NCBI GenBank assembly: GCA_029254745.1
Contig: JAQWWZ010000025.1
Coordinates: forward strand, 124,001-188,000
DNA: 64,000 nt
From: Opitutales bacterium
GTDB taxonomy: Bacteria > Verrucomicrobiota > Verrucomicrobiia > Opitutales > Seribacteraceae
Direction of reading: 5' to 3'
Each line of letters starts with the position of its first letter. Position 1 is the stretch's first letter. The notes beneath the pieces were generated by a model, which was not told where the DNA came from, ran no database searches, and saw only the letters and a list, made by a program, of their open reading frames with translations. Below are positions 36,583 to 64,000 of this stretch, piece by piece. A program made the position numbers and the translations under genes.

Positions 36583-37272
36583 ATGAAAATAATTTTATTC
36601 TCTCTTTTATCATTCGCTTTTTTTTCCATCGGATCCTTATTTGTATTGGGCGAAGAAGATAAGTTTGCAAAGCTAGACATTACCAATGGCAACCTTTCCA
36701 TCAAAAAGCAAAGTGACCAATGGCTAAGAATAACTGTTCCCTTTAAACTCGTAAGCCATCCCAGAATAGAAGCACTCGAGGGCAGAAGACCTTTAACCTT
36801 AAGCCAGGCTTTTAACCCCAAATTTATAGACGACATAAAGGTTAAATTATGGATATGTTTTGCTAACAAATTTAAACAGAATCTTCTTAGATCGACCAGT
36901 AATTTAAAAGATTCTGATTTTTATCAATATTATGATGCTGAAATTGAATACCTAACCCTTGACTTTGATCGATCTACCAAAAATGCAATCTTTCTTTTCC
37001 CTACAACGATTGCAGAAAGAGATGGATTTTTGGGAGCCAATGTTAAGCCAGTGGGTTATGTGGTAGAAATTTCGCATGCTGATTCTAATTTTAAGCTATC
37101 TAATGCAGTTTATTTTAACTACCGAGGGGCAACGGAAGAGATTCTAGAAAGCTTTAAATCCCAAGCTTTATCCGAAAGTCCGGAGAATAAAGGAGTGCTC
37201 GTACCAGCCCACAAAATAGATGCAAGTTACCTTGTAGGAATGGGACCTGTGAAGACAGCAGATGAAAGATAA
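36583..37272 (+). CDS. Amuc_1102 family pilus-like protein
   Basis: A 229-residue exported protein with a signal peptide (about 1-22, ending near VLGEED). The rest is predicted to be beta-rich, with LRITVPFKLVSHPRIE, VKLWICFANKF and a C-terminal YRGATEEIL stretch. I assign it to the Amuc_1102 family mainly from its place as the first gene before the Amuc_1101, 1100, 1099 and 1098 homologues, the order known in Akkermansia. The exact role is unknown; it may be periplasmic and part of the envelope complex. It is followed by the PilM-like gene after 36 bases. Confidence 0.7.
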   Translation: MKIILFSLLSFAFFSIGSLFVLGEEDKFAKLDITNGNLSIKKQSDQWLRITVPFKLVSHPRIEALEGRRPLTLSQAFNPKFIDDIKVKLWICFANKFKQNLLRSTSNLKDSDFYQYYDAEIEYLTLDFDRSTKNAIFLFPTTIAERDGFLGANVKPVGYVVEISHADSNFKLSNAVYFNYRGATEEILESFKSQALSESPENKGVLVPAHKIDASYLVGMGPVKTADER

Positions 37273-37308
37273 AAGGGTGCACGACTCGAGCAAAGAGTAA
37301 ATAATTGT

Positions 37309-39069
37309 ATGGCAGCCAAAAATGAGCTAATCATAAATTGCGGTATATCGCATGTTTCCGCGAGCGTCTTTAGTTATGACGGTAATATGCTAAACCTTAA
37401 CAAGGTGGGCCTGCATACCCTGACTCACGATTATACCCAAGATTCATTATGGCTTGATTCAGTCATTGCTGGAATAAAAACTCTTTGTCTTGAGCTTAAA
37501 TTAAAAGGTAATGCCAGGTTTATTTTTCCAGGTAGTTTTCTTTTAACTAAAACGATTCGGGTCCCGAAAGTAGAAAAAGACAAGCAGGATAAAATTGTCG
37601 GATTTGAGCTATCCCAAAAAATGCCTTTTCCTCTAGCCGAGCTGATATGGGATTATCAGATCATTGATGACGATGGAGTAGAGCAAGAAATTTTAGCCTT
37701 TGCAGTAAAGCCAGAAGTTGCAGAAACTTTTTGTGAACGAGTCGTACAATTGGGACTGACGCCTACACAATTAACGCCGGCACCAGTCTTAGACTATAAT
37801 GCCATGCGAGCATCAGGAATAGGTTTGAACGATAGTGAAACCCTGGTTGTGAATATGGGGGCAAAGTCAACTAATTTGCTTTTTATAAACCCAACAGGCT
37901 TTTTAATCAGAAGTATAGCCGTCGGTGGAAATGCACTTTCGCAAAACTTAGCTGACCGATTGGGAGTTCTTTTCGGGAAAGCAGAAGAACTCAAAAAGTC
38001 TTATTTTGCTGGTCACATGACTTTTTCACCAGATGACCCGAATTTGCAGAATATTGAATCTTGTGCTCAACAGTTTTTAGCACGAGCCAGTCAGGAAATT
38101 ACCCGCTCAATTGTAACTTACAAACGCTTAAAAAAAGGTAAATCCCCCGAAAGAATATTTTTGGCTGGTAGGGGGGCACTTCTTCGTCATTTACCAGAGT
38201 ATATTAGCCAAAGCCAGCAATTGAGTATTGATTACTTTGATCCTACTAAGATTATTCAAATTGGTCCTGAAGTTTCTGTCGAGATGCAGAGTTTGCTTCC
38301 GTTTATGTTGAGTGAACCAGTTGGTTTAGCCAGTACAATATATATGGATGTCGGCGACAATAAGTTTGCACCACCTTTAAACCTTTTACCATCTTCAAAG
38401 TTATCAAGTTTGAGTTTTAAGAAGAAGAAACCCTTTCTTTGCATGGCTTGTTGTGTTTTTGCTCTTTTACCTCTACCCGGCCTTTTGAGGTCAAAAAGTA
38501 ATCTTCAAAGTCTGCAAGAAAATCTTGCCGATCAAAAGGTAATCACGCGAAAAATTTCGCAAGACCTATCCAAGCAAAAAGGTCTGAAAAGAAAGTTTGA
38601 GTTTATTGACAGGCTAGCTAGTGAAGTAACCAATAAAAATAAACCATTTATTGAAAAACAGAATACTTGCTGGCAAATACATTCCTTTTTGAATGAGCTA
38701 CAGGATACATTGGAACATTCAGAAATTAGTGACACTTGGTTTGATAACCTCGAAATCATTATCCAAGAAAAAAATCAAAACTTAAGAGGAAATACTTTTA
38801 AAGATAATAATAAAGTATCAATCAAAATAGAATTATCTGGTCGATATTTAGTAAGAGCAACAGATGAAGAATTATCTGGGGGTGGGTCAGAGAAACGAAA
38901 TGCACTTATTGATTTAAACAGTCAGAAGCAGGCGGCGTTGACTACCTATATCCAAAGTATTCCCATTGTAGGTAAAATTGATCAAAAAGTTTTTTCAATT
39001 GAAGGGAAGGGTGATCTTTTTGGAAAATACTTTACCCATTTTGAGTACCAAGTAAGTACGAAGTTATAA
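37309..39069 (+). CDS. Amuc_1101 family PilM-like protein with a PilN-like C-terminal part
   Basis: A 586-residue protein that seems to join two pilus platform parts. Residues 1-350 are an actin-like ATPase fold of the PilM/FtsA type: IINCGISHVSASVF at the phosphate-1 loop, VVNMGAKSTNLLFI at the second loop and RIFLAGRGALLRHLPEYI near the end. A single membrane helix follows at about 380-397 (FLCMACCVFALLP). The remaining 190 residues lie outside the membrane and start with a coiled coil, as in PilN. In type IV pili PilM binds the cytoplasmic tail of PilN, so a fusion would fix that contact. The next gene starts within a few bases. Confidence 0.83.
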   Translation: MAAKNELIINCGISHVSASVFSYDGNMLNLNKVGLHTLTHDYTQDSLWLDSVIAGIKTLCLELKLKGNARFIFPGSFLLTKTIRVPKVEKDKQDKIVGFELSQKMPFPLAELIWDYQIIDDDGVEQEILAFAVKPEVAETFCERVVQLGLTPTQLTPAPVLDYNAMRASGIGLNDSETLVVNMGAKSTNLLFINPTGFLIRSIAVGGNALSQNLADRLGVLFGKAEELKKSYFAGHMTFSPDDPNLQNIESCAQQFLARASQEITRSIVTYKRLKKGKSPERIFLAGRGALLRHLPEYISQSQQLSIDYFDPTKIIQIGPEVSVEMQSLLPFMLSEPVGLASTIYMDVGDNKFAPPLNLLPSSKLSSLSFKKKKPFLCMACCVFALLPLPGLLRSKSNLQSLQENLADQKVITRKISQDLSKQKGLKRKFEFIDRLASEVTNKNKPFIEKQNTCWQIHSFLNELQDTLEHSEISDTWFDNLEIIIQEKNQNLRGNTFKDNNKVSIKIELSGRYLVRATDEELSGGGSEKRNALIDLNSQKQAALTTYIQSIPIVGKIDQKVFSIEGKGDLFGKYFTHFEYQVSTKL

Positions 39070-39073
39070 GTTG

Positions 39074-40201
39074 ATGACTATAATAAAGAATAATTTATTA
39101 CTTTTCACTTTTGGTATCTTATCATTTATATCGATTACAATCTTTCTAGGTTACCGTTCGAATATTGCTTCTGAAATCGAAGAAACAGAAGATGAGATCC
39201 GAAAAGTTGTGAGGTTGCAGGAGGGTTACCATGAAGAAATTTCTGTTTTTAAGAATTTAAAAAATGATTTTTCTAAAGTGCAGGATGAACTCAGCCAGCT
39301 TGCAACAATTGAAAAAAATCAAAATCTTTTTTGGAAAAAAATTCTTAATCACAGAGAAAATCACATGGTTAAGTGGAAAAACAAAACTGCTGAATCAGTA
39401 AATGCCGATATAACTAGGATGTTTTCTTCCTTGAGGGCTAGATGTCGTGCTAAAGATATTGAATTACCTTCTGCAGTAAATAAAGCACCCACCATTGGCT
39501 TTGGGTCAACGAATAAGAAGCCAAAGAACAATTATGGTTTCGGTTTCTCTGCTTACGACGGTTTTTGGCCAAGCTTTTCCCAAGAGGAGGCAAAAATTAT
39601 TGGGGTGCAGGCAAAGATAATTAAGGAAATAGTAGAAATTCTGACCCAATCTGTTACTGACAAAAAGAAACTGAAATTAATAAAGATTTTAAGAGAAAGT
39701 GCGGGTAGTGTCGACATCAAGCATATAAAAAATGATCAATTAAACTTGGGATCTGAACGCCACCTTTTACTGCAAAGTATGGGCAAAATTGAAAGTCTTG
39801 TTTTTGAGATCTCGATAAAAGGTCAATCAAGTCATGCAAGAAGATTTATCAACCAACTTAGAGCACCATACATGTTGAGAGATATCTCTGTAAAAAGAGA
39901 AATTGTGTTAGAAGAAAAAATTCAAGAGGACTTAAACTTTATACCTAACCCTTTTGGAAATACTAGTGATAAAATATCTCTTCCGAAGAATAAAATTAGC
40001 CCCATCGTAAAAGATGTAAATTCCGAGTTCATTTTTCTCATTGAATACATAACTGAAATTTCAAACGACTTTAGTATTTTATTTAACAACAAATTGATTT
40101 GGGAAAATGCCGAAAAAGATCTCTTGGTTGAGTTTTTAACTAAATCCGGGAATGCGGAGATTATAGAAGAAGCTAAATCAAAACTATTTTCAACTGAGTA
40201 A
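39074..40201 (+). CDS. Amuc_1100 family pilus-like protein (PilO-like)
   Basis: A 375-residue bitopic protein with an N-terminal membrane helix (about 7-26) and a coiled coil (about 30-85), followed by a globular periplasmic part. This layout and position match PilO and the Akkermansia protein Amuc_1100, known as an abundant surface-exposed protein that signals to host TLR2. The closeness to that protein is judged from layout and neighbours; sequence identity is likely low. A TTG codon at 39071 directly precedes the ATG chosen here. It is four bases after the PilM-like gene and one base before the next. Confidence 0.8.
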   Translation: MTIIKNNLLLFTFGILSFISITIFLGYRSNIASEIEETEDEIRKVVRLQEGYHEEISVFKNLKNDFSKVQDELSQLATIEKNQNLFWKKILNHRENHMVKWKNKTAESVNADITRMFSSLRARCRAKDIELPSAVNKAPTIGFGSTNKKPKNNYGFGFSAYDGFWPSFSQEEAKIIGVQAKIIKEIVEILTQSVTDKKKLKLIKILRESAGSVDIKHIKNDQLNLGSERHLLLQSMGKIESLVFEISIKGQSSHARRFINQLRAPYMLRDISVKREIVLEEKIQEDLNFIPNPFGNTSDKISLPKNKISPIVKDVNSEFIFLIEYITEISNDFSILFNNKLIWENAEKDLLVEFLTKSGNAEIIEEAKSKLFSTE

Positions 40202-40202
40202 A

Positions 40203-41483
40203 ATGAGAAAATATTACGATAAAATGCTCTTAGCATTTGGGCTGAGTTTATTGGCAATTATTTCAATCAATGGTTTTTTTAACCCCAGTCGTTCATCTAA
40301 AAGTTCACAACCTCTCTTGAATATTCAACCGTTTGAGTTTGAAATTAAAAACGGACTTGGAGCGTTGACCCTAAGAAATACTCATCGTCTTATGCCTGGC
40401 AATACGATTACGGCTGTTGATTTCAATGGATCAGACATAGAAAGTTTTGAGATTAAAGAAGTTATTTTTAGAAGAAGAGCTGAGGTTGAGGTAAATCTTA
40501 AAAATGGCCAAAAGATTTCAGGAAAACTTACCAATCAAGATGAACTTATATTGGGCAAATCATGGCAAAATACTCGGCAACCGTTAACAGTTTCTAGAAA
40601 TAGAAAAACCATCAATATTTCCCTAGCAACTGTAGAATCTGTCAAGAGTGATCACAAAATCTTATTTTCCTCCCCTAATGGATTTGATTTGCAAAATTTT
40701 TCTCTTTCTTTTTACCAACGAAAAAACATCTACAATCAACATCCACAAAATTTTGAACGACCTACATGGAACCAAAAAAACCTAGATGAAAATGAAACAA
40801 ACTATGACCTATTTACTCCTCCAGTCATTTATTTGGTAGACGGAAAACTATCAACCAACATTCCACAAGAGCCAATTCTCAAGCAAGCAAACGATGAAGA
40901 GTTCGGCATGGAATTAATTAAATTCTCCAACGAACCTTATCCATACAAACTGGTCAGTTGGATTGGAGAAACGCCATACTTCGAAGATACTCAAACTAGG
41001 CAATCCCCGAACTCCTTATCTTTTGTGAGAAATAGGCTTGAAGTCGGTATTCCATACAAGAAAAATAAGGACAGAAAAGGAGGGCAACCTTCGCTCGTGC
41101 ATTCAACTCTGGAAGATGAAGAAAAGCAGTTGGTAATAGAAAAATTTGTTGTGCAACAATACAGGGATGAGAAAACAGGAGGTATGAAAATAATCGGAAG
41201 GGCGTTAGTCAAAGATTTTCAACTTGGTGGAAAATCTTTTGAGATTAATAACCAAATGAAGGAAGTATATGCCGGAAATATAAAAATTGAAGTTCGCATG
41301 ACACTGAATGATTTGGACAATAAAACCTTTACTTTTACAACGAAGGACATGGGCATATCTTTTGATTTTGGAGACCGCTTATTTACTGTGGTTGAAATTG
41401 ATGAAGTGAAGAAAACAATTTTAGTTAATAAAAAAGGACCAAAGCCAAATCAACAGATTGAGCAATTACTCAGATTACCTTAA
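40203..41483 (+). CDS. Amuc_1099 family pilus-like system protein
   Basis: A 426-residue protein with an N-terminal membrane helix (about 8-26) and a beta-rich periplasmic part. It has no enzyme motif. In the Akkermansia cluster the gene at this position encodes an uncharacterised pilus-system component, and by analogy with type IV pili it might take the place of the pilot or PilP-like link between the inner-membrane platform and the secretin. The repeated segments on valine and lysine strands (KKTILVNKKGPKPN) fit a small beta domain at the C-terminus. It lies between the PilO-like gene and the secretin. Confidence 0.75.
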   Translation: MRKYYDKMLLAFGLSLLAIISINGFFNPSRSSKSSQPLLNIQPFEFEIKNGLGALTLRNTHRLMPGNTITAVDFNGSDIESFEIKEVIFRRRAEVEVNLKNGQKISGKLTNQDELILGKSWQNTRQPLTVSRNRKTINISLATVESVKSDHKILFSSPNGFDLQNFSLSFYQRKNIYNQHPQNFERPTWNQKNLDENETNYDLFTPPVIYLVDGKLSTNIPQEPILKQANDEEFGMELIKFSNEPYPYKLVSWIGETPYFEDTQTRQSPNSLSFVRNRLEVGIPYKKNKDRKGGQPSLVHSTLEDEEKQLVIEKFVVQQYRDEKTGGMKIIGRALVKDFQLGGKSFEINNQMKEVYAGNIKIEVRMTLNDLDNKTFTFTTKDMGISFDFGDRLFTVVEIDEVKKTILVNKKGPKPNQQIEQLLRLP

Positions 41484-41526
41484 TTTAATCTTTTTCGAGA
41501 TTGACCCCAAGTCCTGAATCTATGCA

Positions 41527-44500
41527 ATGAAGAGTTCGTTTAAGTTCGACTCTTGCCCGTTTTGTTCGATGTCATATCTACATTTAAATTTTGTTAGCAT
41601 ATTTTTTTCCTTATTGCTCGTTCCCTTGGGCTTTGGGCAAGCAGACTCTGTTGGTTCTAGCATTCCATATGTTCAAATACCCAAGCAAGCAGCACCACCC
41701 AAAATTGAGACTCCCTTGGATGATGTTAAAAATTACAATGTCGGAAAAGATACGAATCTAGTAACCCTTCTTCAAAAAGTTAGGCAATTACTAAACAATG
41801 GTGATATTGAAAGTGCCCAAGCTTTGGCTCAGTCTGCACTTGCAAATGTTGAGAGAACAGCAAAAAACCAATTTTACCTTACACAAATCCGACAGCAAGA
41901 GACAAAATTATACTACGAACTTGCGACCAAGGCGATGAGTGAAAAAAAGTTTTCTCTGGCAAGCCAATTACTTGATAGATATCGGGATAATATAGCTCTT
42001 GAATTGAGTGAGAGACAGCGGAAGCGCGACATAGTGCTCAATAAAGAAGGTCCAAGCAATGTATCATTAGTGGGAAAGCTGGTTGAAGAACTGGACAATG
42101 CCAAGCGAGACTTGGCTGAAATTCGGGCGAAAGCGGGTTTACCAGAAGACGATGCGAAACCAGATTTAGAACGTCTTATGGAGCGAGAACAGGCAAAGGT
42201 CAGTTCTACGATGAGAACAAGCGAAAGGCTTTTAATTAAGGCTAGAAAAGCAGGTGAAGATGGTCGTTATGATGAGGCAACGCAATTACTTGATGAAGCG
42301 CTCTCTCTCATTCCGGAAGGATATTCTACCATTGCCTTGATAAGTGATTTATACAAAGCAAAGCAGCAGATCACTTGGTACAAAATGGGTGAGGCTATGC
42401 TAAAGGGGCAAGTTTCAAATGTGCAGGAGCTGGTGGTTGAGTACAAGAAAGTAGAGGATAGGAGAAGGAAGGCTGAGACTGAAACTCTGGGAATAGATGC
42501 TGAAATAGATTACGATGCTGAGATTCGTAAAGCATTAGAAAAAAATAAAGAGCAAGCTAAGCAAGCTGAATTCATTCTCGGTCAGGCACGGGAAAATATA
42601 AAATTAAAAAATTATGATGAAGCGGAGTCAGATCTGCTTAATATTATGAATTACCTTGAGCCTAACACCCTGACATGGCCAATAATTCTAGAGGCTTCAT
42701 TGGTAAAAAATAGGATTAATTTGGCAAAAGCTGAAGATTACCGTGAGAAAAAGGATTGGCAAAAAGCAAATGAATACATTGACGCATTCAAGCTAGGTTT
42801 TCATCAAGATAAAAATATCCAAGGAGATACTTTATCATTTGGCAGACCTGGTCTTAAAAAAACCGGAGGTGAGAAGGCAGTAAGCAAAGAACTTGGTTTG
42901 GCGGACAAACTGGTCAAGAAAATCGAAAAGGATAAAAGAAACCCTTACAAGCGTGATATAACCGAATTTTCACCGACATGGAAAGATGAGCAAGCTGCAT
43001 TAGATGAGCTTCTGATGAGGGCAAAGGTTCAATTTGTAAACAATGATTTAGTTGGTGCAACTGAAACCTATCGTGCGATTGAAACACGATTTTCAGATAA
43101 TTATGAAGCCAAGGAAATGTTGAAAAGAATTTCCAAAATACGCCAAGAAGAAAGTTATTTGGGCTACCTTAAGACGAGACAAGAAATGCTCGAAGAAATT
43201 GAACGGGAATGGGAGCGCCCTAAGGTTTTCGATCGTGTAGTAGAAGAAACTGCTGATGTACAAGATGTTACCTCAAAAGTTGAAGAAAAATTAAACCTCA
43301 TTCAAGTTTCCCCGATGCCCTATTTCGACTCTCCTTTGCCAGATGTGATTATGGACCTCCAAAGATTAGCCAGGCAAAATGATCTAACTGAGCCCGATAT
43401 CACAAAAAAGGGCATATTAATGTACGCTAAAAAGCCCCCAGAAGATGAAGAGTATCCCAATGTAACAATCACACTTATTCCGATGTCTTTAGGAAATGCA
43501 ATTTCTGTGATCACGGAATCCATAAGTTGGACTTATGAAATTGAACCCAATGCTATTGTTATTTCAAAAACTGGCGGCAGCATACAGGGGCGACGATTAG
43601 AGACCGAAGAATATGAGATTACTCAGGGAACTGTTCGCAGAATGACTGGTGGCTCTGGAGGAGGAGGAGGTGCAGCAGCCGATCCTTTTGCCGCAGGAGG
43701 CGGGGGAATGGGTGGTGGTGGTGATGGTGATGACCTCAAAGTAAAAGCATATTTAGAGGCAGCAGGGATTTCTTTTGATGAAAGTAAAGGTCATCGTTTT
43801 GCTTTTGATGGTTTTCTTATCATCGTTACCCACGACCGAAGAAGTTTGGACAAAATAGAGAGAATTTTGGCTCGGCTTGACAAAGATACAAGCAAGCAAG
43901 TGGAAATAGAAACCAAATTTTTGGAAGTGCAAGAGGGTGCCTTAGATGAGATCAGTTTTGGCTGGCAGTTTGGATGGGGAGACCCCACTTACATGGTCGA
44001 CCCTGCAACGAGTCAGCCAATAATTGACTCACAGGGAAATCCGGTGTTTTCTTTTTCAAACACACTGATGGGGAACACCCGTACTTTGGCACAAGCCCAT
44101 AGCCCGGGGGCAAGTTCAAATAGTCAGATTGTAATCAGCGACTCCCTCAATCCCTTGGCTAGTATGACATTGCCAACACCTGCCCCAGTATTACCCGGCT
44201 TTGTTGATATAGGTGCGGGCGTCTCACCTTTGGTGCAATCTCAGAAAAACAGCATGCAATATGCTCAGGGAGCAGGGAGCATGATTTTGGGGGGTAGCCA
44301 GGCCAAGCTTCTCATTAGTGCTCTTAAGAGAAAACAGGGAACGGACTTGTTAAGCGCACCCAGGATTACTGTTGTTGATGGCGAAGAAGCAACTATTACA
44401 ATTGCGCAAGAATTCATATATCCGATCCAATATGCAGCCCCAGAACCCCCTCAGGTTAATAATAATGGTGGCGGCGTCGGTGGCGGTGGCGGCGGCGGTG

Positions 44501-45096
44501 GAGTTACTGTCAGATCGGCAACTCCGGAATTTGGCGATGTTGCTCCAGAAGGTAAGCAGCAAGGTTTCCGAGAAGTTGGAGTCATTCTTTTTGTTCGTCC
44601 AAAAGTTGAAAAATACAATTCCATCAACCTTTTTCTCAAGCCAGAAGTCACAGAATTTGATGGCTTTGTTGAATATGGTGGACCATCTGCGGCAATCAAC
44701 GATACCAAAACGATCATTCAACCATCAGGTAATTTAATGCCAATTTTTTCTACTCGTAAAGTAGAGACAACTGTAAGTATTTTTGATGGTGCTACAGTAG
44801 TTATTGGTGGTTTGACTAGGGAAGAGGTCAAGACGGTAAATGATAAGATTCCAGTCTTGGGAAATATTCCCTTATTGGGTAGACTTTTTCAATCCTCTGC
44901 TGAGAGTTATCAAAAGCGTAATCTCTTAATTTTTGTCAGCGCCAACATTGTTTCCAGGGGTGGCTCACCAGTTCGTGAGACAATCCAAAATATTAGCCCG
45001 CAATCAATTTTTAAAGATCCTGTCATCATGACCCCAACTGGAACCATTCGGCGCACTTTTAAGGATGACGACAATGTTATGCGGTTAATTAAGTAA
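41527..45096 (+). CDS. Amuc_1098 family secretin (PilQ-like outer-membrane channel)
   Basis: A 1189-residue exported protein. A signal peptide ends near GFGQADS (an internal Met at 41569 would give a more usual one). Residues about 60-590 are helical, TPR-like repeats with many Glu, Lys and Ala, unusual for a PilQ. An N-type secretin domain (about 595-680) follows, then a Gly-rich linker (about 705-735), and the secretin channel domain (about 770-1150) with VEIETKFLEVQEG, LLSAPRITVVDGEEATI and the signature DKIPVLGNIPLLGRLFQ. A second Gly-rich insert lies at about 977-992. It should form the outer-membrane pore of the pilus-like complex, or export surface proteins such as the giants encoded next to it. 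Confidence 0.9.
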   Translation: MKSSFKFDSCPFCSMSYLHLNFVSIFFSLLLVPLGFGQADSVGSSIPYVQIPKQAAPPKIETPLDDVKNYNVGKDTNLVTLLQKVRQLLNNGDIESAQALAQSALANVERTAKNQFYLTQIRQQETKLYYELATKAMSEKKFSLASQLLDRYRDNIALELSERQRKRDIVLNKEGPSNVSLVGKLVEELDNAKRDLAEIRAKAGLPEDDAKPDLERLMEREQAKVSSTMRTSERLLIKARKAGEDGRYDEATQLLDEALSLIPEGYSTIALISDLYKAKQQITWYKMGEAMLKGQVSNVQELVVEYKKVEDRRRKAETETLGIDAEIDYDAEIRKALEKNKEQAKQAEFILGQARENIKLKNYDEAESDLLNIMNYLEPNTLTWPIILEASLVKNRINLAKAEDYREKKDWQKANEYIDAFKLGFHQDKNIQGDTLSFGRPGLKKTGGEKAVSKELGLADKLVKKIEKDKRNPYKRDITEFSPTWKDEQAALDELLMRAKVQFVNNDLVGATETYRAIETRFSDNYEAKEMLKRISKIRQEESYLGYLKTRQEMLEEIEREWERPKVFDRVVEETADVQDVTSKVEEKLNLIQVSPMPYFDSPLPDVIMDLQRLARQNDLTEPDITKKGILMYAKKPPEDEEYPNVTITLIPMSLGNAISVITESISWTYEIEPNAIVISKTGGSIQGRRLETEEYEITQGTVRRMTGGSGGGGGAAADPFAAGGGGMGGGGDGDDLKVKAYLEAAGISFDESKGHRFAFDGFLIIVTHDRRSLDKIERILARLDKDTSKQVEIETKFLEVQEGALDEISFGWQFGWGDPTYMVDPATSQPIIDSQGNPVFSFSNTLMGNTRTLAQAHSPGASSNSQIVISDSLNPLASMTLPTPAPVLPGFVDIGAGVSPLVQSQKNSMQYAQGAGSMILGGSQAKLLISALKRKQGTDLLSAPRITVVDGEEATITIAQEFIYPIQYAAPEPPQVNNNGGGVGGGGGGGGVTVRSATPEFGDVAPEGKQQGFREVGVILFVRPKVEKYNSINLFLKPEVTEFDGFVEYGGPSAAINDTKTIIQPSGNLMPIFSTRKVETTVSIFDGATVVIGGLTREEVKTVNDKIPVLGNIPLLGRLFQSSAESYQKRNLLIFVSANIVSRGGSPVRETIQNISPQSIFKDPVIMTPTGTIRRTFKDDDNVMRLIK
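43645..43733 (+). repeat. Gly-rich low-complexity linker in the secretin
   Basis: Codons for runs of Gly interrupted by Ala, Asp, Pro and Met join the N-type domain to the channel domain. A second stretch of GGC/GGT codons is at 44459-44503. Both look flexible, and both create false reading frames on the other strand. Confidence 0.8.
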
Positions 45097-45107
45097 AGAG
45101 AAATTTG

Positions 45108-45179: not shown

Positions 45180-45220
45180 ATCTATCAGGATTTTGTGTGT
45201 TTTTGGTAGATTATTGACAT

Positions 45221-57200: not shown

Positions 57201-58645
57201 TTACGGATCAAAACGGAGAATATGTTTTGAGAATAACCGAAGCAGAATTTATTAAATTTGATGAAAATAATAATAGCATTCTTGATCCAAACGAAGGAAG
57301 AATTATTGTTTCAGGCGGGGTAGACGGATCAACAGGATTTGCTTTTCTGGGTAGTTTTTCAGCGGATGCGAATGCCTCGGTTGTGACTCCTCTAACAACC
57401 CTAATATCAGGTCTGCTTGATTTGGGTCTTTCTAAAAGCAAATCGCTAGAAAAATTGAATGAAATTTTAGATTTAAATGTTTCAGATATTACCGATTACG
57501 ATCCGCTTCAAAAAGCGGTATTACAAGACGAGAGTGCAGCCAAAATCCTTATTGAGAGTGCAAGAGTTGCTAATTTGTTTAAGCAAACTGAATCATTACT
57601 GGAATATAAGTTGGGTGCGGGCTATAAAAGAGGAAGCTCAAGTTTAGCCTTAAGTAGTAAGATAGCTAGCGGCCTCAGCCAAACTTCGCCAAAATATATA
57701 CTGGATGAGCCTGAGTTATTGGAAGATATGCTGAAAACTTTCATCGATGAAGAAATAGATAGTGGTTTACTGAGTGCAGGTGAATTGGAAGCGTTTGTTG
57801 ATATTGTAGAAAAAACGGATGCATTACACGAAAGCCTGAAAAGCCAAGCATTGACACCCAGAGATTTACTTAGCGAATTATCCAAGCAACAGTTGGCGGT
57901 CGAACAAGAAGTGATTTCTGTTTATCAGGAATTGGCAACCTCAGTTGGCAGTGTAATTTCGTTGGCGGAAACGCTCACAACGGCCTCACTCATACAAAGT
58001 AGTAATGGATTTACCAATTTAAACCTTTTCGCTCCGCAAGCCGAGGATTTCAGATTTGTTTTCCGTAAGGCTGATGGAGTAAACAATGTAGTAGTAAAAG
58101 ATTTCCCTTCTGTTGACTATGATGGTGATACTGTGGAGATTGAGATTACTTCTGGTAATATCGATACAGATGGAGATGGAATTCCCTTTTTGGTACTATC
58201 TGCAGGAGATCTTATAGTTCAGGATGCAGATGAACTTTCAAACTTGATGGGCCAGCAATTTTCACTCATTTTTTCTATGACCGATGGCCGAGGAAAGTCG
58301 AGTGAAGTTCAAGGTATAATTTTGATCGACAATGGCTTAACTTTTGAGAGCGAAACGAATGCAGAAAATATGTGGGTCACATCAAGCTGGTTTGGTTCAT
58401 TTTACTCCACGGGAAGTCCTTGGATTTATCATTATAAACTTGGTTGGCTTTATGTTTATTCAGATGACGCCCAAGGCTATTGGTTTTGGGATGCGGTTTA
58501 TAGTAATTGGTGGTGGAGTAATCCGGATGTGTTTCCTTATTTTATAGAGCAAGTTGACTCCCAAAAATGGAAATATTTTGATCTTGGTCAAAATACCACA
58601 CGGGCTTATGATTTCGATTCTAATGTATGGTTAATTCGCCCATGA
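45221..58645 (+). CDS. Giant exported multi-domain surface protein: C-type lectin, M11-like metallopeptidase, LamG, GxGY modules
   Basis: A 4474-residue exported protein. An N-terminal signal anchor (about 5-27) precedes a C-type lectin-like domain at about 301-450 (WEEAKEYSSAQ, WIGATDDEDENG, EPN). A metallopeptidase with HELGHNFNLHH (742-752) and a Met-turn YSIMG (M780) recalls the gametolysin M11 family; the usual Gly of HExxHxxGxxH is Asn. Later parts are a PKD-like domain (about 1087-1180), two LamG-like domains (about 1497-1708 and 1756-1961), at least ten GxGY modules, a carboxypeptidase-regulatory-like domain (about 3080-3110), DxDxDG calcium-binding repeats (about 3490-3590), Ig/HYR-like domains (about 3730-3960) and a Trp-rich C-terminus (4380-4474). 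I infer an adhesin-protease for polymer or particle surfaces. Confidence 0.85.
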   Translation: MIDRLKKFFLHLFLFTVSIIFSLSFLFQETQKRTTNVKVVKEKFADEKDLNSDLSLVQDVKISKANESVPKLTSRIYRDSILGEFSNWIESYQRLSCLLDDNCTEHDPRQISHFLKMGEKLARKRMSVFKSLIQTNPQKALLVAIDANVIDTLPTPIRSYLENWEFGKGTLSSFYKCKGSDHAKCINEKKVSLEDGTEFRAHTYGLRDNIYNVKDFVFWGVSMGQDLAISEYPFSSTDLENGKSSYSFDGKPLHFSNDAEKSLFTEQSLTAERRAQVQSNYVSYPVIAGSNGVTVNLKKRYDLVLTPMTWEEAKEYSSAQNGRLVCINSAAENNYIQNLLFDALNGFDENNQSVSYGWIGATDDEDENGTIFNPETNSTAPFELNSTKGSWSWLSGDRVADGYSNWEDLGISNWGEPNSSNYSYGAIDFSDAAWIAVTKDFKLPFVIEYDDGAATENNFRTVNGFRKVLVVPARFRDEGYSASGDSAPLVDRDGNVLYPEFQQNSYEPVSQTELKETMDKVKEYFLRNSDNSFVLEAVITPTVTLDFDKYTPGRLISGETSGNLYDSSGEYFTIFGETVYQDELSILSENALAQAALQSKEWNYNGRAFVGVAQVLIPKGGVGQGFLVPPSIQFEGGNIDPDGSPDPDFLPAKAEAIVGPSGKIEAIKIIDSGAFYHGAPKILIDGVESTEMAPIVAKIAISWVVVTSYSAGGVQGLGYIGEAGAHAQAPPQNTMFAETIAHELGHNFNLHHANTYTSQSERPTSDEGVTNAYANPYSIMGNLASISAGELNIPSKVSMKQLRGFGLNLGQSNGNDVAGLIFSEADLIASELKEIDEALPANTFRIYRHDFGHGPYSLKLGDFDLKFPAGSSISDTLNNLYFEQNVSIKINGIGDGAKAVLDMSASPKLQIVSGGRGYAEEPQVEVLDENNQTILTLAPNWIQRPTGTGSYAQVGLRDLSPRSPRGLRGMELPASLNSPRGKLEPDLQEWNSALASYWISYRRKATEYGLTVINGHFIAQIGQDAPNYQVEQNLLDMTLNTPGDFSDCFLLPGHTFSDYDSGVHITPIGKGGTSPMEYLSVTVNIGEAEAAPTFSIATNTRTPDIGEMVEISVVLDLDDNKTVKDYGFGWFTNEKIESNSVFLNKPSITKVFENPGHHIVRAVVSNLQGGVSSKNIVFTVGDYQNTNKSSISGTVRSGKQFVQGARVLVSPAKIINHEVSITGNERDWFLPTGENNPLSYVIDGIKAPNLTVRKGEVHRFNFDNTAQKYAMAFYDHPQHEASLIKLDMLVTPNVDDRGTGYTENPDVHVSGGSAFANYLSYQVGTIEDYQNNLIGDPTQKLLVSRPGAKSLLQDTNVTSIKIHPTTLDDSGLYLQYGGRGHDRDNLPNLSIFRSSLWEDYVNEPNATAIPYVDGIGTISPCMSYAFLGNAWQTRSGSEPLPEVVVWGTSQDANVSVTPNAVGPNGKKVYKEITIHDQGTGYEPNATMAVLHYPLQPLARWTFDRHESLFDDKNYARYQASPAWNREILENLVHYWDLDEESGTILGDKPLTGEGEDVDVSPLLSDIENNSTWGVKGRALDLDLSGTILEFEGASLDSNFTISFWVKPNASDHTFTLGDASLTYNHTAQTFKFISSTLDRKADAQGWSHIAIVYDGLGAGEFYLDGDSTSYSETISVGSLSSTDFNGSLDEVRVYSEAMSEGKVKYLAGRSFLDISGNKYHASGVGPDFLFVTPGTGNINGGSSTEVPGDGPLSDYPGRLGDSFPGEGHGHSIFWDDNDSYLDLSTHAREFAGYTQGSISFWVRSAGRDESGEADLTVFSATNTDDNATYLKVMIRDNGYPQFEVFNNGQEVSKFYALEKVTHGLAAPTAEDWHHVVLVVGDATSAFWVDGELAETKTYDVTSSGDQRAFFADVENMNFMAIGRMETSEANATSSYRGCIDDFTMYDRPLNATEISYLYGLKLGREQIPRLEAVVDAVGSIKIDQGGHGYKETPDVVFSFGQEGNVTTELDLYDASDTPAHGKLAYNSDKAVIMSYYMVRPDSDTTWRDGFDSTGWRVYGQAFAVAELNASKLDHILWTKEMDTLTTFSLPDNREVSRRFIEYVTVDASGNYALPNGLFGYVKPPELSVDPPSSGETSTAFSLFFLDKNTSARIVNSGQGYGDGGFTEAAVRVSGKGFRPSQVVRTSIQDQMGNLDELDIKISEKEGSLTMQEEDGGKEHAFKVTTKLKIDGNFSYTSTYGDDFNDTIIGNLSTKFTNQIRVGDLFYLGDAYTISDQKYLVSQVFDDQKFTFNLYNELQERSEIVGLITKDTDDGDINFFDPDRDKVLGVNIYIISSTGPQGEHVFYDWESNRTKTGEPRTDDLHTEFNKTISHVILDNPGFGYSMPVKLSVVGGYPKRETLLKHMDENGSRWDFRPAVLELNASAVDSNGTLGENAIVVIDGGKGYELITNDAGDKAYFPAIQISGGGGNGAFAIATDLNVTEGNFSRVEVIIGGRGYFNTNSTNIPKAALSHTTSLTADEEDANFTVRLGGLWDEIPPCDKCTEGKHGVRGWFDKPSHSHPWVEIWDRARTEEEIDTNEDRAHAVAKIKDGKIEKIIVTESGRGYRDPVAYVRGVAPKHHAYDPYDDVSNREWRCTNIRETIEGQLLECGHIERSSYPPESCLGEVDENFLIDEENTDQKVIAWQKRHTGLARHLCKLEDKITIFNEGVESDYNTTAHMSVNFKSRKCGGTKVNFVLLNDYARFPYEDWEVFDASFTLLVRNGEIQEIVVDDGGDMYSANEIDLAGSGSGVDAIPIFDEDGKMIRVIFDDPKLRNLEYDQILRPQGAGQGFQERPWSWDQTYEPTFGVRETHSLVSISSEKVLLTKDVTGLEEDWIFGSPAHADFLGDRIVDVEVTSFGKFSQSRDIDSLAFDFNGSHRPDSNDGQVGFVQASATPFTTTRLTKIQLDQNGTYLDNSANDAEDHRWRSLFDEQPSLNLINTYHEEKIAGAINGDQDLINILDSNKSSLFRLNGANAFNTIGEVDYIDLRIDERFPSKFYYGFGAGMEHLPAMGAEIIVTDGLPGMNWAENEPAERNMTAYTDQAGYYMIPDLEPGIYNLAVFMEDPFFQETTFRPSSYPTNVSQVLYVPGMPDLILETDNRGIGRSTLVWSAQARSLAKPSRSMSASQEYQEELKMIQGIGAGFQNGERPQVIINPFPGNTSSAVPSLTVVGQSDGSLILTIVDDENTTNFNPNDRFTVTYSSSVSGKDFFEDFMHSSSETSSWQGSLDSVTSTSDGLFYIVPNDGNGTNFVEVPLNVQGVEEANFTFSAIGFDATGTPFETNNTNWSFSLDYSDVNQSNVAVLSNVTGISTDLNLFSTLKRGRVEEVQILGGGIDYTNESRVSLNGNGVDFNASVLVGSNGEILDVNIASSGSGYNQNAEFIIHDLSGKGSGAVLKPILGGGQLILEANITKDGVVYKASTVVRASPRNVLSPTEKWLDFYIGSFKDQNSSWWSTDEDSDGLNNMDEYHLGTHPFLSDTDMDGLNDGDETMVTFTNPLRWDTDGDGVDDRNETEDQNTNPLLADSDFDGLNDRYELEMGLDPMSSNPTASIGGIIFNPQHLDFPLFLKKEVDTQGTAKAIFTAQEEVIDYNHTKPYVFSFPHLELNKYHRLSAFLDTDGNASQTEGEPFAVWEGIITQNIFNANLYLKDSPPSIAFSNELSTEVSIPDGLGSYEFAHNVEALDVLDGAWDPVNPQKLLILVDGSLSGYLIDFNGTLSSNYLEVNQTIPLGTYNLSYQAFDSSGEKSSIISQAITVQDNHGPVISLISGQEMDWVVKEPWSDPLYKIFDNRDANESIVVTISGNPNINVIGTYAITYRAVDTSGNISETVRQVDVKDKEKPSIYVSQNPLILTIGQALELPSYSANDNYDGDITAKVTMSGQDLVDVNTDGDYSIVLEVVDSSGNRVTETLVVRVSPPAYTLAGNAIDGYLVGSSVIFDSDGDGISDLSVPAFTDQNGEYVLRITEAEFIKFDENNNSILDPNEGRIIVSGGVDGSTGFAFLGSFSADANASVVTPLTTLISGLLDLGLSKSKSLEKLNEILDLNVSDITDYDPLQKAVLQDESAAKILIESARVANLFKQTESLLEYKLGAGYKRGSSSLALSSKIASGLSQTSPKYILDEPELLEDMLKTFIDEEIDSGLLSAGELEAFVDIVEKTDALHESLKSQALTPRDLLSELSKQQLAVEQEVISVYQELATSVGSVISLAETLTTASLIQSSNGFTNLNLFAPQAEDFRFVFRKADGVNNVVVKDFPSVDYDGDTVEIEITSGNIDTDGDGIPFLVLSAGDLIVQDADELSNLMGQQFSLIFSMTDGRGKSSEVQGIILIDNGLTFESETNAENMWVTSSWFGSFYSTGSPWIYHYKLGWLYVYSDDAQGYWFWDAVYSNWWWSNPDVFPYFIEQVDSQKWKYFDLGQNTTRAYDFDSNVWLIRP
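47074..47330 (+). repeat. GxGY module pair inside the metallopeptidase region
   Basis: From GQGFLVPPSIQF through KIEAIKIIDSGAFYHG to VAKIAISW: two module units lie between the N-terminal part of the peptidase (VVPARFRD) and its zinc helix. The position suggests an insertion in a surface loop of the enzyme. Confidence 0.5.
52519..52755 (+). repeat. GxGY modules, central part of the giant protein
   Basis: Two adjacent units with IDGGKGYE, SGGGGNGAFAIAT and IGGRGYFNT. Other copies of the pattern are at about 47941, 49081, 49627, 51131, 51670, 52332, 52967 and 53494. Confidence 0.55.
55291..55545 (+). repeat. GxGY modules before the calcium-binding repeats
   Basis: Two units, GRVEEVQILGGGIDYTN and GEILDVNIASSGSGYNQN, each followed by a strand and a Gly-rich turn (LNGNGVD, GKGSGAVL). 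This is the clearest tandem copy and a good seed for a profile. Confidence 0.6.
55690..55985 (+). repeat. DxDxDG thrombospondin type 3-like repeats
   Basis: Four units: DEDSDGLNNMDE, DTDMDGLNDGDE, DTDGDGVDDRNE, DSDFDGLNDRYE. The regularly spaced Asp residues form calcium sites in thrombospondin type 3 and OmpA-family linkers. Such repeats stiffen exported proteins when calcium is bound. Confidence 0.85.
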
Positions 58646-61600
58646 CTAAATTGACTAAATTACTTTTGTTCTCTGTCCTGAGTTTCTTCTGCCTAGGCCA
58701 AAAATCTGGTGCACAAGTCACAGATCTGTCAATTGAGTTCACTGGCACGCAACCAGCTGAGGTATTGGTCGGATCATCCTTTGCAATAACCGGTCGGGTT
58801 TTTCATGTGGATGCAAATTCTACGGATGTTCCTGCGGGAGAGACAGTAATTGCGACCGTGGAATTAAAAGACCCCGATGGTCAAATAATAAGTACCCACA
58901 TCCAAACTTGGAGCGGTTTCAAGCAAAGTACGCCAAACCCAGAGCTTAATAACGATAATGTTGCAACTGCGAAACAGATTATCTTTTCTATGCCTTGGTC
59001 TCAGGCCCAAAAATGGACTGAAGACGCCCTATGGTCGGTGACGATACGGGTTCAGGGGGCAGCCCTTGAGAATAACCCGGCAAATAATCAAGCTACCCAC
59101 ACTTTTTCCTTGGTGATCCCGAACTTACAGGTAACCTCTTTAAGCACTCAATTCAATGACTATTTGCCAGGCTCTGATATATATCCTGCGGTTGTTGTGC
59201 GAAATGATTCAGCAGTAAGAACCCAAGAAGGAGTATTTTTTCCATTAGTTGTAAGACTCCTAGAAAATGGTATAATCGTAGATGAAGAAAGTGTGGTTTT
59301 GCCATTCGCCGATGGAGGTCTCACTCCATCGATTGAAGCCGAGTCAGATACAGGGGAGATAACCATGCCACCTCTTCGTTTGCCAGCGGACGCAAATCCT
59401 AATTCCACTTGGATGGTTGAGGCGGTTGTGGATCCTTCTTTTATTGCACCAGAACATATTATTCATGAAACCATAGAGGACGCGGAAGGATCTGACAATC
59501 GTATGGAAATTCCCATCACGATTGATCCTGGAAATGTGATCTTAACGGTCGATCAAGACAGCTTTTTTGGAGACATTGGTACATTTAATGGACTTGATCC
59601 TGTTCGGATTAGCTTTTCGATTCGCCATACAGGTACAACTTTATTGTCCGGGGAATTTACCGCCCGAGTTTTGCTGTCAGAGGACGACTCCTTTACAGAC
59701 AATGATGATTTTATATTGAGGGAGTTCAATGTTGGCCAGAGTGGGCTTGGGGCAAACCTAAAACCTAATGAAACCATTCATTTAGACTGGATACAGCAAC
59801 TTCCAGACAATTTGGAAGGTGACTATTACTTGGGAGTTACCATTGCCAACCAAAATTTCCCCCTAGATAATACACCAGTTATTACACTTGTTTCGGAAAA
59901 TAATGGCATCACAAGCTTGGTTACCGACACTTCCGGTATGGCTGAAAGACCGCATACAAGCAAAGATGGAAGATTTGTGGTTTATGAACAAACGAACCAA
60001 AATGGAGACCAACAAATTTATTACCAAGATCTTGTGATTGGGGGTGCACCAACTTTAATTTCCAAGTCGTTTTTGAATCCAAATGTGGGGGCCAACGGGG
60101 ACAGCTTTCGGCCTCGTATAAGTGGGGATGGGACAACCATTGTTTTCCACTCGATTGCCGGTAATTTGGTGCCTGGTGATGGAAATAATCATGAAGATAT
60201 TTTTCTTTACAAAATTTATAATCAACAACTCATAAGAGCGGAAGGTTTTGGTGGAAATGAGGCAGATGAAGGAAGTTTTTACCCGGATATAAACCAAGAT
60301 GGTAAATTTGTTGTTTTTGAGTCCGATGCTACAAATTTAAATTCAAACGGAATTAGCAGTACTGGGCGACAGATCTTTTTGTGGGATCTCACGAATCCAT
60401 TGGACTCTCAAATCAAACCTTTGACGCAAGGCAATAAAGCAAGCAAAGCTCCAAAGATAGACGACAATGCTTCAAATGTCGTTTTCGTTTCAGATGCAAC
60501 AGATTTATCAGATCGAAATTTCACCAATGATGTTGATACCAATGGAGAAACCGATGTTTTCTTACTGCGATTAGAAGATAACTATCTTACTCGAGTAAAT
60601 CGGCCCAGTGATACTTTTTTAGCTTACTTTCCGAGTAATATGGAAGCAAGGGGCGGTCCATCGGATCAGGTTGAAATTAGTGGAGATGGAGAAACCATTG
60701 TGTTTCGTTCAGAAGCGACAAACTTACTTTTACTTAAAGGTATATCTAATATTCGGGTCGACCGTGGTGGTGTAGGTTATTTTGGCAATCCGTCCATTGT
60801 AGTTACAGATTCAAACGGCACTGGGAGCGGAGCAATTCTTTCCCTTTCCACTGGGGTTAATAGTTACGGACAAATCCAATTGTCCGGAGTGAGAATTATT
60901 AATCCTGGCATAAATTATGTGGACCCCATCGTTTCTGTCATACCAGACCCAAATTTTCCATCTCCTCGAGAGACTGCAGTGATTACAGCTTTTATCTCTC
61001 ACCCAGAAGGTGATATTTACAGAGTCAAGACATCTGATGCTTTACTTTTACAGTCAAATATACCTTTAAATCGTGTGAGTGAAAAAAATGAAGTTGGAGG
61101 AAATATGCCGAGTCGTGAGCCTTCGATCAGTGAAGACGGTAGAACTATTGTTTATGCAACAAAATCCTCAAATTTGTTAGATAGTAATGTGACTCGTTCG
61201 GATGGAAGGGTGTATTTTTCAAATCCTACTGAGCAGGCAAGTGCGACCGCCATTCTAGTTGGTGGTATTGGTGAGATAGAAATTCAAAATCCTGGCTTGG
61301 GATACCAGAATGGTTTTTTAAAAATTGAGGATTTTTCTGGAATCGGAAGTGGTGCGATCGCCTCTTACCAAGTAGACACTTTTGGAAGAATATCATCGGT
61401 TCTAGTGGTTTCTGGCGGTGAGAATTATGACCTTGATAGTACCACTATTAGTGTGGACAACCCTAGGGGTGGTACAGGCTTTGAGGCTGGTGTCATCCGT
61501 TTTGAGCAGGTGGCTGGCAGTGTTGCTAATCGCACCGGGGGAGCTTTGGTTCATCGGGTTGAAATGTTAAACAACGGAGCAGGTTACCAGCAAGCAGTCA

Positions 61601-64000
61601 CTACTGCCCGCGGGCTTGATACTTTAATTTCTATCCAGGGTGATGGCGTGGATATCGACCAAGATGGCTATCCTGATGCAAAGATTGACCAGTCCAAAAT
61701 ACATATTGGTTTCAAGGGTGAAGTTTTCCTTGAACAATCCTTTTATGTTGAAATTTTATCTGCCGCTAGCCTTGCGAATACAACCTTAACCATTGGGGAT
61801 ACAAACAGAACAATTACAATCGACTATGCTCTTAATGGGGCAACTGCACTGACCACCGTGGGGTATACAGCCAGCGATTCACTTACCGATATTCGGGATC
61901 GCACTACAGATATTATTAGAAAGCAGTGGGCATTCCCAGAATCTCTACTATCTGGTCCACAAATCGAAAATAATGCTAGCGGGGGCACTTCATTTACTTT
62001 TTCTGCATTAACAGGGAAATTTACCACCAACAACCCCTCCTCTATTTTAATCACTCCTGAAAGTAATATGCTTTTCAGCGGCCTCGGTTTTACCCGGGCA
62101 ACACCAGTGATTGCACCGGCTCCCTCCATATTTGGCTTCTCTGAAGTTTTAACCTCGAGTAACATAGACTCCACCAGTAGCAATCGCCCTTCCTTGACTG
62201 CGACCAGGGACAACGAAACTGACGATATTTACCTCTTAGACCTTGATACCAATGAAACCGAAAGAGTGAGTTTGAGCAGCTTCGGCTTTCCGGTTAACTA
62301 TATACCAAGTACGGCTTCGACAATGCCAAGTAATCGGTTTCCGACTATTAGCGGTAATGGTAGGCATATTTTCTTTAGTAGCGATGCAGAGGACGAAGCA
62401 GGTTTAGCTTTTACTACTTCCAACCAGAACCCACTGGATACAGGTAATGCAAGAGATATTTATCATCGAAATCGACAGCTCAGTAAGATTGCCAATAATC
62501 TGACTGATGTAGAAATTCTTTTTCCTTCCTCAGAACTTACTTTTTCTTTTGGTGCGAGTGCAACTATCCCCGTCGTGGTAGATGTTAAAGAAAATATTTC
62601 TGCTGTTTCTTTCGTGGGAATCTTTGTGGACAATGAACGCGTTGGCTTTATGTCATCATTTAGTGCAGGGAATTCTTTAAATACCGGCAGGTACACATAC
62701 CTGTTAAATAGTTCCAACTTTTTCAATTCCCAGGTAACGGGTCAAGGGACGCATGAAATTTCAGTACTAGCGTTTGATAGAAATTCCAATGTCGTTGGAT
62801 CTTCTTCTTCAACAATCACCATGAATGATTTTGAAGGATCATTAAACCCGACGATTGAAATGGTAGACCCAGTTTTCGATAATATTACTTCGACTTCAAC
62901 TATTCCATTGCTTGCGAGAGGTAGTGATGCTGATGGTAATTTCATAGGAGTTCAATTTTATGTAAATGGACAACCTGAAGGGAAAAAACTATTTCGGGCA
63001 TCATCAGAATTCCCGGAAGCCACAAATTACACTCTTCAGTGGTCCCCCAAACAACAGGGAAACTTTAGCTTTTTTGCCCTTGGTTGGGATAATAGTGGTA
63101 ACTATGTTAGCTCTGCTATTTACAATATCTCTTCAACGACAGGCTCAGATCCTCCTGCAGTAGAAATCTCCAAACCATTCCAGACGATTGACTTGAATAG
63201 TAGTTTTATTGTTTTGGATCCTATCACAGGATCTATTGTTAATGTTAATTTAACCGAACCCATAGGCAGAGGCTATTTCACGCATCCCAAAATAAGTGTT
63301 ACGGGTGTGGGTACGGGTGCAAAAATAACCCCGATTGTAGATTGGAGTTTTAGTTCACCAGATTATGGTAAAGTTACAAAATTAACCGTGGAAAGTACAG
63401 GGCAGGGTTATGACTCCAAAGATACCTCTATTAGGATTACTCCAGTGCTTCAAAGTGTTAAGCTTGGAGTGGAAGCCAGCATTAGTACCTTTTATGAATT
63501 TAATGCATCTGGTGATTTGCAATCCACTCGGTTTTATATCGGCACTAGGTTTGATGGTAAATTACTAACAGGCTCAGGATATGTAACCGCACCTAAGTTT
63601 AGGCCACGAACAGTTTCTACACCAGGGCGACTTCCCTTAGCGCCACCATCACTCGGTGAAACCACAACAAATGTGCTACCCTTGGATGCTACACTAGCAT
63701 CTCCTCCGAGCTACCCTGCCGCTCGGATTAGTGGAGGCTTTAATCATTCACCTTTTTATCTAGAAGCAAATGTTTCAAGCTCAAATGCCAATATTGCGGA
63801 AGTAGGACTATCAATTAATGGTGAAGTTTCAGAAGAGTCCCTAAAAACGAGCCCTCCTTATGTTTTCCCAGTTTACATCGATGACCCTATAGAATATTCC
63901 ATCGTTGTCTTGGTAAAAGATGACAATGGGAATATTTCATCAAGTGACCCACTTACTTTTGACTGTCGTGAGATGGTAGAATCTTCACCCATAGCTTTCT
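58642..64000 (+). CDS. Second giant exported protein (partial, open at the window end): CARDB-like, PD40 propeller, GxGY modules
   Basis: The frame is open from the ATG at 58642 to base 64000 (at least 1786 residues) and runs out of the window. A signal peptide (about 1-25, ending near KSGAQ) starts it. Residues about 30-420 look like CARDB-type beta domains that recur in archaeal and bacterial surface proteins. From about 430 to 1280, PD40/TolB-like propeller blades occur (SKDGRFVVYE, SGDGTTIVFHS, NQDGKFVVFESDATNL, SEDGRTIVYA, SGNGRHIFFSSDA). GxGY modules interrupt them (about 704-786 and 867-1016), and more lie at about 1541-1620, after an Ig-like region. The start overlaps the preceding stop (ATGA), so translation is coupled. 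Function unknown; exported or surface-bound by inference. Confidence 0.8.
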   Translation, partial: MTKLTKLLLFSVLSFFCLGQKSGAQVTDLSIEFTGTQPAEVLVGSSFAITGRVFHVDANSTDVPAGETVIATVELKDPDGQIISTHIQTWSGFKQSTPNPELNNDNVATAKQIIFSMPWSQAQKWTEDALWSVTIRVQGAALENNPANNQATHTFSLVIPNLQVTSLSTQFNDYLPGSDIYPAVVVRNDSAVRTQEGVFFPLVVRLLENGIIVDEESVVLPFADGGLTPSIEAESDTGEITMPPLRLPADANPNSTWMVEAVVDPSFIAPEHIIHETIEDAEGSDNRMEIPITIDPGNVILTVDQDSFFGDIGTFNGLDPVRISFSIRHTGTTLLSGEFTARVLLSEDDSFTDNDDFILREFNVGQSGLGANLKPNETIHLDWIQQLPDNLEGDYYLGVTIANQNFPLDNTPVITLVSENNGITSLVTDTSGMAERPHTSKDGRFVVYEQTNQNGDQQIYYQDLVIGGAPTLISKSFLNPNVGANGDSFRPRISGDGTTIVFHSIAGNLVPGDGNNHEDIFLYKIYNQQLIRAEGFGGNEADEGSFYPDINQDGKFVVFESDATNLNSNGISSTGRQIFLWDLTNPLDSQIKPLTQGNKASKAPKIDDNASNVVFVSDATDLSDRNFTNDVDTNGETDVFLLRLEDNYLTRVNRPSDTFLAYFPSNMEARGGPSDQVEISGDGETIVFRSEATNLLLLKGISNIRVDRGGVGYFGNPSIVVTDSNGTGSGAILSLSTGVNSYGQIQLSGVRIINPGINYVDPIVSVIPDPNFPSPRETAVITAFISHPEGDIYRVKTSDALLLQSNIPLNRVSEKNEVGGNMPSREPSISEDGRTIVYATKSSNLLDSNVTRSDGRVYFSNPTEQASATAILVGGIGEIEIQNPGLGYQNGFLKIEDFSGIGSGAIASYQVDTFGRISSVLVVSGGENYDLDSTTISVDNPRGGTGFEAGVIRFEQVAGSVANRTGGALVHRVEMLNNGAGYQQAVTTARGLDTLISIQGDGVDIDQDGYPDAKIDQSKIHIGFKGEVFLEQSFYVEILSAASLANTTLTIGDTNRTITIDYALNGATALTTVGYTASDSLTDIRDRTTDIIRKQWAFPESLLSGPQIENNASGGTSFTFSALTGKFTTNNPSSILITPESNMLFSGLGFTRATPVIAPAPSIFGFSEVLTSSNIDSTSSNRPSLTATRDNETDDIYLLDLDTNETERVSLSSFGFPVNYIPSTASTMPSNRFPTISGNGRHIFFSSDAEDEAGLAFTTSNQNPLDTGNARDIYHRNRQLSKIANNLTDVEILFPSSELTFSFGASATIPVVVDVKENISAVSFVGIFVDNERVGFMSSFSAGNSLNTGRYTYLLNSSNFFNSQVTGQGTHEISVLAFDRNSNVVGSSSSTITMNDFEGSLNPTIEMVDPVFDNITSTSTIPLLARGSDADGNFIGVQFYVNGQPEGKKLFRASSEFPEATNYTLQWSPKQQGNFSFFALGWDNSGNYVSSAIYNISSTTGSDPPAVEISKPFQTIDLNSSFIVLDPITGSIVNVNLTEPIGRGYFTHPKISVTGVGTGAKITPIVDWSFSSPDYGKVTKLTVESTGQGYDSKDTSIRITPVLQSVKLGVEASISTFYEFNASGDLQSTRFYIGTRFDGKLLTGSGYVTAPKFRPRTVSTPGRLPLAPPSLGETTTNVLPLDATLASPPSYPAARISGGFNHSPFYLEANVSSSNANIAEVGLSINGEVSEESLKTSPPYVFPVYIDDPIEYSIVVLVKDDNGNISSSDPLTFDCREMVESSPIAF
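60752..61000 (+). repeat. GxGY module pair within a propeller blade
   Basis: Units IRVDRGGVGYFGNPSIVV and VRIINPGINYVDPIVSV, with GTGSGAILSLS between them. The flanks SEATNLLLLKG and HPEGDIYRVKT read like one PD40 blade split by the module. Confidence 0.5.
61240..61690 (+). repeat. GxGY module run splitting the propeller
   Basis: Three units: IEIQNPGLGYQNG, VLVVSGGENYDLD and VEMLNNGAGYQQA, each with a Gly-rich turn (GIGSGAIASY, RGGTGFEAG). They follow the blade DGRTIVYATKSSNLL, and propeller sequence resumes near 62150 with DDIYLLDLD. Confidence 0.5.
63262..63500 (+). repeat. GxGY module pair near the window end
   Basis: Units IGRGYFTHPKISV and LTVESTGQGYDSKD, with GVGTGAKITPIV between them. 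Same pattern as above, after an Ig-like part. Confidence 0.5.

Follow-up and report, generated by a model that had tools for sequence, protein, structure and literature searches.

Why are two giant proteins encoded directly behind a secretin, and do they belong to one system with it? The question is raised by the second part of a 64,000-nucleotide window, that is, the whole stretch of DNA analyzed here, from the draft genome of an Opitutales bacterium (C54:124001-188000; genome 2.45 Mb, 72 contigs). A first-pass annotation had proposed that a pilus-like operon continues into two giant surface proteins. Our open reading frame (ORF) listing confirms that every large ORF between 36583 and 64000, seven genes in all, lies on the plus strand. 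The fifth gene encodes a secretin of 1189 amino acids (41527..45096), GiantA (45221..58645; 4474 amino acids) begins 124 bases behind it, and GiantB follows (58627..64000). The successive intergenic gaps are 36, 1, 1, 43, and 124 bases and give way to an overlap between the giants, in agreement with the annotated range of 1-124 bases. GiantB likely starts at its second Met (58642), where an ATGA joins its start to the GiantA stop codon TGA; the longer ORF reading starts at 58627, and the ATGA coupling that had been claimed is right if the second Met is used. The window holds the first 1791 residues of GiantB, which is open at the window end and runs on along C54 to 190161 and then along C29 to a stop at 43695. 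Joined through an exact 119-base overlap of these contigs inside the gene, GiantB has a full length of 3471 amino acids, and both proteins deserve the label "giant."

The secretin and the giants form one conserved genetic unit within the family of this bacterium (f1), a conclusion that is strongly supported. In 24 of 25 family loci, GiantA comes next after the secretin; the 25th is cut after 158 amino acids. GiantB follows GiantA in all 12 loci where the contig extends far enough, our own included, and giant orthology within the family spans most of both proteins. Two GT4-type glycosyltransferases (350 and 369 amino acids), which lie downstream of GiantB on the same strand of C29 with a convergent hisF-like gene beyond them, were located in 10 and 9 family loci, respectively, again counting our own. 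Because the gene order is conserved across the family, chance is excluded for the secretin-giant arrangement. The family itself consists of uncultured, probably marine Verrucomicrobiota.

Beyond the family, the arrangement is uncommon. An Amuc_1098-type secretin is near-universal in the order (155 of 177 genomes), usually without giants. Homologous clusters lacking such proteins, named in the first-pass annotation as an observation that would speak against it, are thus found in most of the order and in none of the readable close relatives. The secretin must have a function independent of the giants, since most clusters of the order do without them. We also considered the giants as an ancestral component of every Amuc_1098-type cluster, which the same distribution excludes.

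Draft contigs of many relatives (e.g., G020:C88, G004:C40, and G053:C3) break off in the secretin gene, shortly after it, or partway through the giants. Repeats are the probable cause of these breaks, and the locus is therefore under-sampled in public metagenome-assembled genomes (MAGs).

The layout suggests that the unit may be read as one transcript. The 124-base gap between secretin and GiantA (45097..45220) contains no plus-strand promoter-like site, and no terminator-like site occurs on the plus strand between 44001 and 47441, both by consensus scan only; the annotated lack of a hairpin terminator therefore stands at this junction. Across 20 family loci, the gap measures 42-436 bases, with anything terminator-like in three. 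Judged from gene layout, the likely promoter site of the operon is the 79-base intergenic stretch at 36504..36582, which separates its first gene from a divergent gene on the minus strand (36021-36503). A lipoprotein-like ORF of 23 codons within the gap (MKVIMSKQYMVIFCISLSLQLAC, 45108-45179), with a lipobox-like Cys at its end, was rejected because the corresponding gap of G017 has no equivalent.

Both giants end in the same tryptophan-rich domain, which we call the W-domain. It comprises 87 residues (GiantA residues 4384-4470; 58370..58630), with seven invariant positions, of which six are Trp. No consistent Pfam or NCBIfam family matched it, its best match among Protein Data Bank (PDB) sequences had an E-value of only 0.89, and its predicted fold matched no PDB or viral structure at E ≤ 0.001. 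AlphaFold predicts an all-beta domain of ten strands with a mean predicted local distance difference test score of 90, which we read here as five beta-hairpins. The domain is present in 51 of 177 genomes drawn from the order and in 7 of 289 drawn from the phylum. A single-sequence search placed it at 19 sites in its own genome and a profile search at at least 23; for many genomes the profile-search counts are lower bounds. Most copies lie no more than 25 residues from the C-terminal end. We rejected the idea of a strict C-terminal signal because of non-terminal copies (L117, L131, L122, and one of the two in G021).

About 20 other proteins of the same genome carry the W-domain (260-2900 amino acids; e.g., L116, L117, L118, L121, and L131). 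Most of these start with a signal-peptide-like segment and would represent an uncatalogued class of surface proteins.

The link between this secretin and W-domain proteins is genuine and predates the giants, although weaker beyond the family. Such proteins recur near the secretin in four other families: directly behind it in f3 (G038, G364), f20 (G386, G412), and f21 (G056, G209, G387), and two genes further in f79 (G341, G352), after a PolA-type exonuclease gene and a subtilase. Outside the family, 7 of 23 immediate secretin neighbors bear the domain, a count that leaves out genomes cut by a contig end, against 0.32 expected. Under independence this gives P ~1.5e-8, which is optimistic because the genomes are related and three of them (G056, G038, G209) had been seen before the count. 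In G341 and G352, the W-domain near the secretin is the only one detected in the whole genome. The relationship extends beyond the shared domain: when a GiantB stretch outside the W-domain was searched against whole genomes, its best match was the secretin neighbor in G341, G352, G412, and G038, and a protein elsewhere in G209, G372, and G388. Since the best match is the secretin neighbor in four outgroup genomes, GiantB is probably the old partner of the secretin and GiantA an addition made by f1.

This history bears on whether inherited position alone places the giants behind the secretin, with each expressed and working by itself. Position alone can be inherited, because the flanking genes (hisF and others) also keep their place in the family. 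Yet four further families, whose flanking genes differ, show the link too, far above chance, and we consider the purely positional explanation very improbable.

In f79, the subtilase that separates the secretin from the GiantB-type protein carries immunoglobulin (Ig)-like domains (L153:4139-7564 in G341; same place in G352). It occupies the position where f1 has a giant with a metalloprotease, a parallel that is suggestive only.

GiantA combines domains for binding and for proteolysis, as predicted by motif and family matches. A C-type lectin domain (residues 307-445; 46139..46555; PF00059, 26.1 bits against a cut-off of 22.6) is followed by a reprolysin-like protease domain (residues 450-885; 46568..47875; PF13688, 27.7 bits against 27). 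The remainder includes two LamG-like (Laminin_G_3) domains, the better one at 50543..51085, bacterial Ig-like domains, and GxGY repeats ahead of the W-domain. The protease domain contains the zinc motif HELGHNFNLHH (47444-47476), and the pattern HExxHxx[G/N]xxH is retained in 21 of 21 readable orthologues; N replaces the usual G in three (own genome, G017, and G010). Downstream lies a Met-turn-like NPYSIMG, the Met of which is invariant in all 14 aligned domains, each of which also matches Reprolysin_5. The closest solved structures by sequence, with weak E-values, are metzincins of the ADAM, snake-venom, and serralysin types. GiantA is thus predicted to carry a metzincin (reprolysin-like) protease domain. 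It shares the zinc motif, the Met-turn, and the Reprolysin_5 match with reprolysin-type metzincins, although, unlike them, its domain is embedded in a repeat protein of 4474 amino acids.

GiantB has a signal-peptide-like N terminus, PD40 repeats, Big_7 Ig-like domains, GxGY repeats, and the terminal W-domain. The GxGY repeats on which the first-pass annotation had remarked number 12 in GiantA and 11 in GiantB, against about one in shuffled sequence. Both giants are under purifying selection: relative to G017, the ratio of nonsynonymous to synonymous substitution rates (dN/dS) is ~0.09 for part of GiantB and 0.07-0.12 for three pieces of GiantA. This rules out decaying pseudogenes.

In G017 (L079/L099), G021, and G023, one or the other giant is broken up over two or three ORFs. 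These splits reflect frameshifts, decay, or assembly error.

What the unit does is a separate matter from its conservation. We tentatively read the secretin complex, the giants, and the glycosyltransferases as one surface unit, with the giants displayed with the help of the secretin and held by the W-domain, and we give this reading a little less than an even chance. The locus would be a lineage-specific extension of the Verrucomicrobiota PilM...PilQ-like (Amuc_1102-1098-like) cluster, in which an envelope-spanning secretin complex is co-encoded with GiantA, GiantB, and two glycosyltransferases as surface partners. The giants would cross into the periplasm by Sec, and the secretin complex would aid their display at the outer membrane. 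The W-domain may then retain them at the cell surface by attaching to the secretin complex or to a glycan there. The glycosyltransferases probably add sugars to the giants or to the surface around them, or make a surface polymer, and the giants themselves probably serve in binding and cutting polymers or the surfaces of particles. The first-pass annotation had suggested one export or adhesion system; the genetic unit holds within the family, and such a machine is plausible.

Several observations weigh against this reading. Most secretin clusters in the order lack giants, and the W-domain occurs on many proteins that are not linked to the secretin. Two MAGs (G033 and G429; 90-91% complete) keep five and three W-domains, respectively, with no secretin found. 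Furthermore, a separate, complete-looking type II secretion system (T2SS) gene run on C40, with its own secretin (GspD), offers an alternative route.

That route leads to a different explanation, in which the genes are transcribed together and the giants are exported by the C40 T2SS, the W-domain being a general surface or glycan module and co-regulation serving attachment. It would account for W-domains that are unlinked or not strictly C-terminal, and for G030 and G443, which keep W-domains with a secretin that is T2SS-type or partial and no Amuc_1098-type secretin. However, it does not account for the recurrence of GiantB-type W-domain proteins by this secretin, and not by the T2SS, in five families, T2SS neighborhoods of the relatives not having been surveyed. 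We judge export by the T2SS to be somewhat unlikely.

The four genomes G030, G033, G429, and G443 belong to one genus (g2) and are smaller. That no Amuc_1098-type secretin was found in them reflects either loss or an assembly gap.

A third possibility is that the giants are borne on pili. Besides the PilM- and PilQ-like genes of the cluster, the genome holds four PF00437 ATPases (two on C18, one on C40, and one on C7) and PF00482 (PilC) on C18 and C40, the C40 copies being part of the T2SS-like run. C18 carries two PilB-type ATPases with a PilC, and the ATPase on C7 is PilT-like; the extension and retraction ATPases and the PilC of a type IV pilus are thus encoded. The giants could then be PilY1-like tip adhesins on pili that pass through the secretin, with the PD40 repeats of GiantB, which resemble a beta-propeller, and the lectin domain of GiantA as binding parts. 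Against this, neither giant has a pilin-like N terminus, and no PilY1-type family was matched by GiantA (Pfam and NCBIfam scans) or GiantB (Pfam scans), the only such likeness being PD40. Linkage to minor pilins is not seen in the cluster either, and we regard pilus-borne adhesins as quite improbable.

A bolder form of our preferred reading makes the Amuc_1098-type secretin a gate dedicated to the display or secretion of giant surface proteins. The W-domain would be a targeting or anchoring tag that originated in the GiantB-type neighbor and was subsequently acquired by dozens of secreted proteins, forming a secretin-based counterpart in Opitutales of secretion by C-terminal tag. We consider it unlikely. 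Type IX secretion relies on a C-terminal sorting domain on secreted proteins. The likeness is that a single genome encodes many secreted multidomain proteins with a common C-terminal beta domain; the difference is that the W-domain is not always C-terminal, and we found no sequence link, although type IX secretion genes were not searched for.

The nearest known counterpart of the cluster is Amuc_1098-Amuc_1102 of Akkermansia muciniphila, a set of genes for PilQ and pili-like proteins, which has the same PilM-like/secretin order with three small envelope proteins and for which no giants or glycosyltransferases are described as members (PMC5332112, PMC4960237). The secretin matches its domain family clearly (PF00263, 118.1 bits; cut-off 27.5) and the Amuc_1098 model (NF042912) at 342.2 bits with an E-value of 5.5e-102, but falls far below the equivalog cut-off of 750 bits, which none of the 177 genomes of the order reaches. 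By this rule it is a distant relative of the Amuc_1098 family and not a member. The PilM-like protein (37309..39069) behaves similarly, with 50.5 bits to PilM_2 (PF11104; cut-off 27) and a strong E-value to the Amuc_1101 model (NF045709) at 241.8 bits, far below the cut-off of 650. With the pilMNOPQ alignment operon of type IV pili, the cluster shares PilM and secretin domains, intervening envelope proteins, and motor genes located elsewhere in the genome; it differs in that its PilN, PilO, and PilP counterparts are assigned by position only and in that neither PilY1 nor pilin models are matched by its giants.

The three remaining cluster genes are conserved in place within the family. The first (36583..37272), in the place of Amuc_1102, encodes a 229-amino-acid protein that starts with a signal-peptide-like segment and has no match in Pfam or NCBIfam. 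The other two lie between the PilM-like gene and the secretin and encode proteins of 376 amino acids with a single N-terminal hydrophobic segment (39071..40201; Amuc_1100 position, PilO-like by position only) and of 426 amino acids with an N-terminal hydrophobic segment (40203..41483; Amuc_1099 position, its role likewise assigned by position only).

Amuc_1100, an Akkermansia protein that has been widely studied, comes from the Amuc_1098-1102 cluster. A concrete cargo or partner hypothesis for the Amuc_1098-type complex is supplied by relatives that have the gate permanently coupled to giants bearing protease and lectin domains. Searches of the open-access literature found no description of secretin-linked giants or of the Trp domain, and PilQ, PilM, and pili go unmentioned in the essential-genome paper on V. 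spinosum. The unit is apparently undescribed, as the first-pass annotation had supposed, and extends a known cluster in a conserved way with an uncatalogued domain. The glycosyltransferases outside the window, the zinc-protease site of GiantA, and the shared C-terminal W-domain go beyond that annotation, and the W-domain is the best lead to mechanism. It is confidently predicted and lies outside Pfam and NCBIfam, and several Opitutales families have it, with copy numbers per genome that range up to the tens. The domain is a discovery in its own right and offers a way into the surface proteome of uncultured bacteria.

One further gene of the T2SS-like run on C40 deserves mention. On the minus strand, L169:7330-9555 encodes a GspE/PilB-type ATPase that, as read from its sequence, seems to have a response-regulator receiver domain at its N terminus.

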